The notes under the pieces were generated by a model. It was not told the DNA's origin and made no database searches. It saw only the letters and a program-made list of their open reading frames with translations. Positions 1,567 to 5,024 of a stretch of DNA of 60,297 nucleotides are shown one piece after another. Location: assembly GCA_913058265.1 (NCBI GenBank), contig CAJXPQ010000016.1:1-60297 (forward strand). The letters are read 5' to 3'. The position numbers and the translations under genes are program-made. The stretch's first letter is position 1, and each line of letters opens with the position of its first letter. This DNA is from an uncultured Oligoflexia bacterium (lineage in GTDB: Bacteria > Bdellovibrionota > Bacteriovoracia > Bacteriovoracales > Bacteriovoracaceae).

Positions 1567-2678
1567 TTTTTTGCTATTCAACCCTTTTTATCTTAGGTTT
1601 CATTGATAATTCAAGAGGGCCTCTTTATCCCGAATTTTTAAATTACTTTCAAGTGAATCCCGGCAAGGGCTCACTAATATTCTCTCTTGCAAGTTTTATG
1701 GGCTTTATAGCAACTATAAGCTCTAAGTGGTGGCTAGGTTTACTTGGCGCTATAAACTCGACCAGAGTCGCCCTGGTTATCCACAGTGTTGCCTGTTTGA
1801 TTATGGGGCTTGCACCCGCTGATAATTTCTACTTATTTTTATTTGCAGCTGTTCTTTTTGGTACAGGTGTTGGGATAGAGACTATTTGTTTAAACTTGAT
1901 TCTGGCAGTTTCCACCGATAAAACTAAGCGTAGACGTGTTCTATCTGGTCTTCATGCTATGTACGGGATTGCCTCTTTTGCGGCACCATTTTTTATTTCG
2001 CTTTTAAAGACTAGATCTGAAAATTTTCAAGATATTTTTCTCTACGTATCAGTATTTCCCATTTTAATATTAATAACAACCTTTCGCCTCAAGCCTTTAA
2101 ACATCTCCAAGGAATCAAGTGATCCGTTCTCTTTGCCTTTAAAGCATATGCTAACTCTGGGAGTTATGATGGGCTTTTATGTAAGCTCTGAGATTGTTCT
2201 ATCCAGTAGACTTGTTTTCTATATTGAGAGTTTGGATATAATGGATAAGGTGATGTCTAAAAATATGCTAACTTTATTCTTCTTAGGGTTACTAAGTGGG
2301 AGAGTGCTATTCACGTTCAAGCACTTTGATATCGATAATAGAAAGCTTCTGATTATGTCTATTGCAGCTTCGCTTCTTGTGACCCTAGTTGGTATCTCTT
2401 TTTATCCTCCGCTATTAGTCTTAAATGGTTTTACACTGTCTTATTTCTTTCCTACAGCACTTGATATGTTGGGTGAGCATTTCCATGAGCACCTTGATAT
2501 TATTATGTCTCGTGTCTTTATTGGAGTAGGCGCCTTGCTCTTTATTGTTCACTGGGGCTTTGGATTACTTACTGAAACCTTTGGTATCTCCATCTCTATT
2601 TGGCTGATCCCAGTATTTATGACTATAGTCTTGTATTTATTACAATTTAGGCTCAAGTTTTTGCAAGAATACCGCTAA
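1548..2678 (+). CDS. Major facilitator superfamily transporter
   Basis: A 376-residue polytopic membrane protein with about 12 predicted helices. The first helix carries FIDNSRGPLYP, resembling the helix-1 region of FucP/NarK-like MFS sugar or solute transporters, and a basic KTKRRRV loop lies in the middle, as expected between helices 4 and 5. Substrate cannot be assigned. The ATG at 1548 is only one base after an AGGAGG, closer than normal, and both lie in a hairpin; no in-frame start further downstream would keep helix 1. The last 19 codons are duplicated at 4851-4907. Before the insertion described below this gene was probably directly followed by the polysaccharide deacetylase gene. Confidence 0.85.
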   Translation: MRISYIVFCYSTLFILGFIDNSRGPLYPEFLNYFQVNPGKGSLIFSLASFMGFIATISSKWWLGLLGAINSTRVALVIHSVACLIMGLAPADNFYLFLFAAVLFGTGVGIETICLNLILAVSTDKTKRRRVLSGLHAMYGIASFAAPFFISLLKTRSENFQDIFLYVSVFPILILITTFRLKPLNISKESSDPFSLPLKHMLTLGVMMGFYVSSEIVLSSRLVFYIESLDIMDKVMSKNMLTLFFLGLLSGRVLFTFKHFDIDNRKLLIMSIAASLLVTLVGISFYPPLLVLNGFTLSYFFPTALDMLGEHFHEHLDIIMSRVFIGVGALLFIVHWGFGLLTETFGISISIWLIPVFMTIVLYLLQFRLKFLQEYR

Positions 2679-2795
2679 ATTGATACCTCTTATTTAGTCT
2701 TTTTTTGGGGTAAATATGAAGAATCTTTTGTTTCTAGTCTTATTAATTAATAGTTCTTATGCTTTAGCTATTACCTTAAGCTCCAATCAAAATAT
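2622..2795 (+). repeat. Direct repeat R1, left copy (174 bp)
   Basis: This stretch recurs at 4851-5024 with a constant offset of 2,229 bp and two mismatches by eye. It contains the last 19 codons of the MFS gene, the spacer, and the first 27 codons of the polysaccharide deacetylase gene. Its right end marks where deacetylase sequence stops and unrelated sequence begins. Confidence 0.95.
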
Positions 2796-2811
2796 TAAGA
2801 TCAAAGCTTAG
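2716..2811 (+). pseudogene. Truncated 5' end of the polysaccharide deacetylase gene
   Basis: A 31-codon remnant that repeats the signal-peptide region of the complete gene at 4945-5970, with N13S and S20T changes. After the repeat ends at 2795 the reading continues for five foreign codons to a TAG. The same GGGG-containing ribosome binding site is present, so a short signal-peptide-like product could still be made. It is best read as a duplication scar, not a gene. Confidence 0.85.
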
Positions 2812-2813
2812 CT

Positions 2814-3058
2814 TTAAGGTCTTACTTCAACTTTATGAAATCCATCTCTTCCTGTATCAGGATTAATAAAATAGAAAGTGTACTCTTCAAGAGGCAGTGT
2901 TTTAGGGGACTACAGTCCAAGTATTCTCTCCAATAACATCAGTTTCAATGTTTTTGAAAATCAGGCGGAACGTACCATTTACATATGTAGCATCGTCTTT
3001 AATTTTTAAAGATTAGACGAAATGTCCCCTGTACATAAGTATGAGCACAAATAGTTAG
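2814..3058 (-). pseudogene. Decayed gene fragment with an internal repeat
   Basis: Read on the minus strand, this gap between genes contains protein-like stretches in different frames: two near-copies of a TYV-[QN]-GTFRLIFKN segment, then IETDVIGENTWTVV, then PLEEYTFYFINPDTGRDG ending VEVRP and TAA at 2814. At least two frameshifts separate the pieces and no start was found. It looks like the 3' end of a gene for a protein built from tandem repeats, now decayed. No family was recognised. The fragment lies inside the 2,229-bp inserted segment. Confidence 0.5.
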
Positions 3059-3068
3059 CAGAAACTCT

Positions 3069-3144
3069 GTAATTTTTAAACAGAAAGGGTTGTTTGGTAC
3101 TTTAGGGATTTAGGTGAATAGGGTACTAATTTGTCCTATACTTA
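3069..3144 (+). repeat. Direct repeat R2, left copy (76 bp)
   Basis: Nearly identical to 4777-4851; the only difference by eye is one extra A here. Together the two copies bracket the three genes at 3335-4703. The right copy joins R1 directly, sharing its last base. No clear internal dyad and no coding sense were seen. Confidence 0.92.
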
Positions 3145-3279
3145 AAGTTGTTGATGCGTAAAGTTGAGCAAAGGCTATTAAAAGCAGAGTAGATTACGCC
3201 ACTATCCTTCGGCATTACGAATCCCTATGAAAATTCATATTTTCAATTACTTATGAAGTATTTTTCTTACCTTCTTAAT

Positions 3280-3302
3280 TTATATCCTAAACTAGGATAT
3301 AA
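3280..3302 (+). promoter_or_regulatory. 10-bp inverted repeat upstream of lipoprotein gene
   Basis: Arms at 3280-3289 and 3293-3302 with a 3-base spacer form a perfect palindrome about 33 bp before the ATG at 3335. The right arm ends in TATAAT (3298-3303 region), so it could overlap a -10 element and act as an operator. The loop is too short for a good RNA hairpin. The rest of 3145-3334 shows nothing else that I can support. Confidence 0.35.
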
Positions 3303-3334
3303 TAATTACGATAAGCTATGTAAGGAATTTAATT

Positions 3335-3742
3335 ATGAACTTAAAAAGAACTATCAGTCTTTTGACCCTTTTATTTATAGTTGCCTCATGTCAACCACAA
3401 GCTGAATACGAGGAATACCAAGGTCCAGATTATCAGGGTAGCCGTAATTTTAGCATTGATAATTCAAAGGCAAAGGCAGAGGTCTCAGTGCACGGTGCAT
3501 TTATGGGAACTCCTGACTGGGGAAGCGTTAAAGATGAAGTTCAAAGGTTTCAAGATAGCGGTGATATAGAAAGTGTAAATGAGCACTCACTTGGAACAGA
3601 AGGTGGTTCAACTTTTTGTTTTGAATTTAGTTCAACAGGAGATAAGGGCCGTGTTTATAATGAGTTCAAAAATTTATCAACAGACTTAAAAGAAACAAAT
3701 TACAGTGTAACATCATTAGATAACTGCTCTGATTCTAAGTAA
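3335..3742 (+). CDS. Small lipoprotein in inserted segment
   Basis: A 135-residue predicted lipoprotein: short basic start, hydrophobic stretch, and lipobox VASC with the acylated Cys at residue 19. The mature part is polar and acidic, with two further Cys near residues 95 and 131 that could pair. An AAGGA precedes the ATG at normal spacing. It is the first gene of the cargo between the two R2 repeats, followed 12 bp later by the gene at 3755. The family was not recognised. Confidence 0.7.
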   Translation: MNLKRTISLLTLLFIVASCQPQAEYEEYQGPDYQGSRNFSIDNSKAKAEVSVHGAFMGTPDWGSVKDEVQRFQDSGDIESVNEHSLGTEGGSTFCFEFSSTGDKGRVYNEFKNLSTDLKETNYSVTSLDNCSDSK

Positions 3743-3754
3743 CACCTATTTAAA

Positions 3755-4342
3755 ATGCCCCGTAAACTCGCTCTTGCACCAGAAAATCTAAAAAAACAGT
3801 ACATGGTTATACAAGAAAGATATGGACGTGACATATTCTCTAAAGCCAGCAATCTCTACCACTTTTGTTTTTTCAACATTCATTCATACCAAATCTCAGA
3901 CCTTAAACAGAAAGTGAATGAAGCAAAAACCGAGGTTAACTTTCCCTTCCTTACTGGTGGAGAAAGAGAATGGCCGATGATTTACACATTCTTACTGGCG
4001 GAATTGCTCAAAGACCATCATCATAACTATTGGGGTGATGCCATCTACATTATCTATTTCACTTATTATACTGGTTTTAACAACGACTCATGGACACATC
4101 TTAATTATGAAACGCTCTATTTAATCGACAATATTGAAGAGGGCATGGCAAAAGATAACTTCAAGAAAGCCTTCCAAAAAGTTTCAAAATATAACTTCAA
4201 TACTAAGGTCAACACCAAAAATGATAAGGTTAAACGCTTTCTTGTTGAGAAGGTTAAAAGTTTTAAGAAAAAATATTCAGAACCTGAAAAAGTAGAAATT
4301 TTCTTAGAACATGCCCACGATATTATAAAAAATGGGCTTTAA
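3755..4342 (+). CDS. Hypothetical soluble protein, 195 aa, in inserted segment
   Basis: A Lys- and aromatic-rich protein with no signal peptide or membrane helix. A central part rich in Tyr, Phe and His (about 85-115, with DHHHNYW) is followed by a basic C-terminal third with a probable helix ending in an HAHD segment. It starts 12 bp after the lipoprotein stop, so co-transcription is likely, but there is no clear ribosome binding site. I recognise no family. With the lipoprotein it forms the main cargo of the insertion, which makes a two-gene function worth considering. Confidence 0.6.
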   Translation: MPRKLALAPENLKKQYMVIQERYGRDIFSKASNLYHFCFFNIHSYQISDLKQKVNEAKTEVNFPFLTGGEREWPMIYTFLLAELLKDHHHNYWGDAIYIIYFTYYTGFNNDSWTHLNYETLYLIDNIEEGMAKDNFKKAFQKVSKYNFNTKVNTKNDKVKRFLVEKVKSFKKKYSEPEKVEIFLEHAHDIIKNGL

Positions 4343-4427
4343 CTCTTTGAAACTTCGTATGGTCTAATTCAAAAAATCCATTTTCACCCCACAATAAATT
4401 AAACCTGAGTAATGTTTTAGTAAGTTC

Positions 4428-4703
4428 ATGAATGGAAATGAACCTTTATCAACATTAACTGACATAGAACGTTTAAGAGTAGTAAACTTCACTCAACTTC
4501 TCTGCAAAGTATCTCCTAGAGTATCAAGGCAAAAAACTACGTCACATGATACTCCTGTGCAGCTTGGTAGAGGTCTAATTGATAAGTTAGAAATATACTT
4601 ACCAACTACACTATTATTAAGTGACACAATCTCAAAGTGTAATGAGCTAGGTCTAAAATATAAGGACAAATATCTAGGTAAGCTATTCACTCTAGAGATC
4701 TAA
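4428..4703 (+). CDS. Hypothetical protein, 91 aa, in inserted segment
   Basis: A short open frame, soluble and without signal peptide, just inside the right R2 repeat. An LLCKVSPRVSR segment with basic residues follows a helix-like start. The ribosome binding site is weak. A hairpin at 4706-4739 follows directly. It could be a truncated gene or chance; the opposite strand also has a short open frame here, which I regard as a shadow. Confidence 0.35.
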   Translation: MNGNEPLSTLTDIERLRVVNFTQLLCKVSPRVSRQKTTSHDTPVQLGRGLIDKLEIYLPTTLLLSDTISKCNELGLKYKDKYLGKLFTLEI

Positions 4704-4705
4704 TT

Positions 4706-4739
4706 AAGAAAGATTAGCTTTTCCTTCCAAATCTTTCTT
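4706..4739 (+). terminator. Possible terminator after the cargo genes
   Basis: A 10-bp AT-rich inverted repeat (arms 4706-4715 and 4730-4739) with a 14-base loop, followed by a loosely T-rich stretch. It sits two bases after the stop of the 91-aa frame. The stem is weak. Confidence 0.35.
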
Positions 4740-4776
4740 GTTTCAAACATTTTTCATATTATATTGAGTAATAGAA

Positions 4777-4851
4777 GTAATTTTTAAACAGAAAGGGTTG
4801 TTTGGTACTTTAGGGTTTAGGTGAATAGGGTACTAATTTGTCCTATACTTA
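4777..4851 (+). repeat. Direct repeat R2, right copy (75 bp)
   Basis: Second copy of the R2 element at 3069-3144, one base shorter. Its last base is the first base of R1 right copy, so R2 and R1 abut precisely here, whereas on the left they lie 273 bp apart. Confidence 0.92.
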
Positions 4852-5024
4852 CTATAGTCTTGTATTTATTACAATTTAGGCTCAAGTTTTTGCAAGAATA
4901 CCGCTAAATTGATACCTCTTATTTAGTCTTTTTTTGGGGTAAATATGAAGAATCTTTTGTTTCTAGTCTTATTAATTAATAATTCTTATGCTTTAGCTAT
5001 TAGCTTAAGCTCCAATCAAAATAT
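4851..5024 (+). repeat. Direct repeat R1, right copy, with orphan MFS tail
   Basis: Second copy of 2622-2795. Positions 4851-4907 repeat the last 19 codons of the MFS gene, including its TAA, with no gene attached upstream. The remainder is the native spacer and 5' end of the intact deacetylase gene. Confidence 0.95.

Follow-up and report, generated by a model that had tools for sequence, protein, structure and literature searches.

IS1634 and IS1549 are on record with target duplications of 8-514 bp (PMC2266710), so a long duplication around an insert is, taken alone, not unheard of. Microdiversity loci between conserved genes are ascribed to homology-assisted illegitimate recombination and are mostly flanked by repeats shorter than 30 bp (PMC2884548). 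Campbell-type single-crossover integration and homology-facilitated illegitimate recombination leave an insert between direct repeats of host sequence, need no mobility genes at the site and keep the target genes. We examined a stretch of 60,297 nucleotides from an uncultured Oligoflexia bacterium, referred to here as the window, in which unrelated DNA separates an MFS transporter gene from a polysaccharide deacetylase gene. The locus resembles each of these systems in part. As with IS1634 and IS1549, a long direct duplication surrounds the insert; unlike them, the insert has neither a transposase nor inverted repeats and the genome has no DDE_Tnp_1 protein. As in microdiversity loci, a few kilobases of unrelated DNA lie between conserved neighbours and are flanked by direct repeats, although these are 174 bp long here. 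The likeness to Campbell-type integration extends to the host-sequence repeats, the lack of mobility genes and the preserved target genes, but that model leaves the join of an internal repeat to a truncated MFS tail unexplained, and neither a donor nor a circle nor an uptake system was seen in the present case. Both host-derived flanking repeats and an empty ancestral site (in other species), the marks of additive homologous integration, are found at this locus.

Comparison of the window with itself by BLAST confirmed an earlier note of two 174-bp direct repeats, here called A and A', that differ at two positions and lie at a constant offset of 2,229 bp; they are 98.9% identical (within-window E = 6.8e-85). 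The mismatches are 2753 G / 4982 A and 2774 C / 5003 G. Both fall in the deacetylase part and are predicted to change Ser/Asn and Thr/Ser. The open reading frames agree with the description in that note of a complete MFS end and a cut-off deacetylase in the left copy, and of an orphan MFS tail and a complete deacetylase in the right copy. The likeness between A and A' breaks off abruptly on both sides (left flanks TTATG versus TACTT; right flanks TAAGA versus ATACG), and the junctions with host sequence have at most about 1 base of visible microhomology. The spacing behind the reported 2,229-bp insertion is correct, but this figure counts one repeat copy and the inserted DNA proper is 2,055 bp long. 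It is plausible that the insertion is recent, which would fit the near identity of A and A'. The coordinates of all features are collected in Table 1.

Table 1. Features of the MFS-deacetylase junction and of the DNA inserted into it, in window coordinates.
Feature	Position	Strand	Remarks
Intact MFS transporter gene, 376 aa	1548..2678	+	ORF; PF07690 MFS_1 E=1.3e-14; G001 ortholog adjoins deacetylase
Left copy A	2622..2795	+	Last 57 bp of MFS, 37-bp spacer, 80 bp of deacetylase start
Cut-off deacetylase start, 31 codons	2716..2811	+	MKNLLFLVLLINSSYALAITLSSNQNIKIKA, then a stop codon in insert DNA
Inserted DNA, 2,055 bp	2796..4850		Absent from G001; ends without inverted repeats
Decayed ORF fragment	2817..3012	-	Stops and frameshifts; within 2796-3068
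B, left copy	3069..3144	+	Truncated on left side
Orphan 135-aa ORF	3335..3742	+	Lipoprotein-type signal LTLLFIVASC; sub-threshold LPAM_1 match, E=0.098
Orphan 195-aa ORF	3755..4342	+	One relative found, a broken gene in G075
91-aa ORF, possibly not a gene	4428..4703	+	No relatives in profile libraries
B', right copy, longer than B	4751..4851	+	Ends where A' starts
Right copy A'	4851..5024	+	Orphan MFS tail, spacer, start of intact deacetylase
Intact polysaccharide deacetylase gene, 341 aa	4945..5970	+	PF01522 E=1.9e-25

Orthologs of the deacetylase are present in four related genomes (G001, G002, G018 and G021). In G001, from the same genus, the MFS and deacetylase genes lie 38 bp apart without the insert, and a lipoprotein gene of the 183-aa type then follows the deacetylase as it does in the window. 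The two genes are also adjacent without the insert in G021, which belongs to another genus. Their adjacency in both genomes indicates that this is the older arrangement and that the insert is derived. It had been predicted that relatives without the insert would have MFS, one junction and deacetylase, and that the two genes were formerly neighbours; G001 and G021, both of other species, bear this out. Judged by their sequence, A and A' stem from duplication of part of the original MFS-deacetylase junction.

The GC content of the insert (33.5%) is close to that of the window (35.2%). No part of it was matched elsewhere in its own genome except the short B repeat. Searches of its ORFs against Pfam, PHROGs, PADLOC and NCBIfam gave no match above threshold, and the statement that the insert holds no transposase or integrase withstood these same searches. 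An island integrated through att sites would be expected to bring an integrase gene, and the insert has none. Neither the 135-aa ORF nor the decayed minus-strand ORF has a relative among 129 family genomes, and the 135-aa ORF has none in viral contigs either. Within the decayed ORF, on the minus strand at 2866-3060, the motif TY-V-x-GTFRLIFKN occurs twice in different frames, the trace of an internal tandem duplication. The relative of the 195-aa ORF is found in G075, from another genus of the family, where it is 49% identical, broken by stops and a frameshift (L038 7681-8262), and situated between a putative tadA-type deaminase and a putative LD-carboxypeptidase. Beside it on the minus strand (L038 7277-7528) is a small ORF that by eye resembles a serine recombinase end and has no match in Pfam. 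AlphaFold models the 195-aa protein as mostly helical, with low confidence (pLDDT 50). A phage or plasmid origin was considered and rejected: there was no phage DNA match, and the 195-aa ORF had no protein match in plasmids, phages, viral contigs or the genome_contigs set. No known RNA family was found within the insert. The content of the insert thus appears to be accessory, orphan or partly decayed, and we infer that it is of foreign origin.

The insert also contains a second direct repeat that the earlier note had missed. This repeat pairs 3069-3144 with 4777-4851 over 76 bp with one 1-bp indel (E = 1.6e-31), and its right copy, B', directly abuts A', giving the order A, x, B, y, B', A'. 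B has diverged relatives at two further places in the genome. The 71 bp of B' that begin at 4751 are 87% identical to C1:342551-342621(-). A second stretch, C1:342400-342470, resembles C8:177344-177405 (90% over 59 bp). B, B' and the C1 copy have the right end TATACTTA in common and then diverge. The C1 type of B sequence had no match in 38 relatives at E <= 0.01. B' folds no better than shuffled sequences on either strand and has no attC-like fold, and an integron gene cassette was rejected.

We tentatively favor, with a probability of about 0.45, the addition of accessory DNA at the junction by homologous or homology-assisted recombination. This reading is suggested by neighbours that were ancestrally adjacent, by a repeat that consists of host junction sequence and by the survival of both genes whole. 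It is further suggested by an insert that is orphan or decayed and not found elsewhere in the genome, together with the lack of a mobility gene, inverted ends, Ku and DDE_Tnp_1. In the ancestor, MFS and deacetylase would have stood side by side. An accessory fragment corresponding to 2796-4850, already partly decayed and with its two copies of B, would then have joined the junction, with 174 bp of the junction being duplicated. The 174-bp junction sequence would already have been present on the incoming molecule, attached to B'. This molecule may have been a circle that integrated by a single crossover; alternatively, it may have been linear and derived from a strain whose locus had been rearranged, in which case homology would have served on one side and an illegitimate join on the other. 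We infer the recombination route itself. The earlier note had likewise started from two neighbouring genes, which was right; its proposed routes, a circle or a tandem duplication followed by cargo replacement, are unproved since no donor was found and capture in one step fits the same anatomy.

Such a capture is a close rival of additive recombination, although we consider it somewhat unlikely in its own right. By this account, template switching, or end joining at a break whose nicks were staggered by about 174 bp, would have trapped a fragment, and fill-in or an upstream restart of copying would have duplicated 174 bp on either side of it. A precise direct duplication would follow from one event, and the abrupt, nearly homology-free junctions agree with this. 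The additive model presupposes a donor with B' fused beforehand to a truncated MFS tail, a demand that one-step capture does not make; no such donor, and no donor copy for the insert or the junction, was found in relatives, phages or viral pattern scans. Against one-step capture, the genome, rated 99.6% complete, does not contain the source of the fragment, and a search of it for a Ku homolog found none. The absence of Ku makes classical NHEJ unlikely and leaves room for template switching or for an alternative end-joining pathway. It is improbable that a non-autonomous element transposed here with a very long target duplication, in the style of IS1634 and IS1549. The geometry fits a target duplication, and the shared right end of B, B' and their C1 relative is like the defined end of an element. 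However, when the ends of the insert were compared for terminal inverted repeats, 849 of 1000 random pairs scored as high, and the whole genome gave no hit for the DDE_Tnp_1 transposase family; with no transposase in the insert, these results leave a classical transposon unsupported. Long flanking direct repeats are also lacking around the relatives of B on C1 and C8, and the left end of the insert has no relative.

If a larger segment with MFS and deacetylase had been duplicated in tandem, and its interior had then undergone deletions and been replaced, the outer genes would likewise be intact and an orphan MFS tail would be left. This history is distinctly improbable because it calls for two or more additional deletions, with a clean one inside each of the gene copies, and for unrelated DNA to have come in, with the repeats nonetheless remaining 99% identical. 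There is a slim chance, smaller again than that of the tandem duplication, that the insert represents one copy of a mobile unit of an undescribed type, which would have B at its end, possess neither inverted ends nor a transposase, and on insertion duplicate about 174 bp of target. Least probable of all, and very much so, is an assembly artefact or a join of strain haplotypes: the two mismatches between A and A' and the indel between B and B' make the copies distinguishable, the insert has open ORFs, and relatives of B occur elsewhere in the same genome.

The locus bears a recombination scar that is modest and for the most part ordinary, the product of a known kind of event. If the recombination reading is true, it is a clear example of a few kilobases of accessory DNA settling in an operon with the neighbours unharmed because the junction was duplicated. 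Its importance would grow only if a mobile unit came to light through additional inserts that have long host duplications.

A scan of the genome with a core pattern of B returned four places and one site with three mismatches. The latter is probably due to chance, given that a control with the reversed pattern gave four. B belongs to a family of repeats of approximately 60-100 bp with four places in the genome, and the loci listed are the window, L004 1370-1575 and L003 1479-1540. The core pattern had no match in viral contigs. One match in a Flavobacteriaceae contig from the genome_contigs scan had only the core in common and was taken as chance. The C8 copy of B is bracketed by broken transposase ORFs with an integrase core (rve) and by a fragment of an IS110/IS116-type transposase (PF02371), at L003 246-990 (+) and 2003-2281 (-). 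A tRNA gene (L022 2488-2561; Rfam tRNA) lies about 3 kb from the same copy and is a possible hot spot for insertion.
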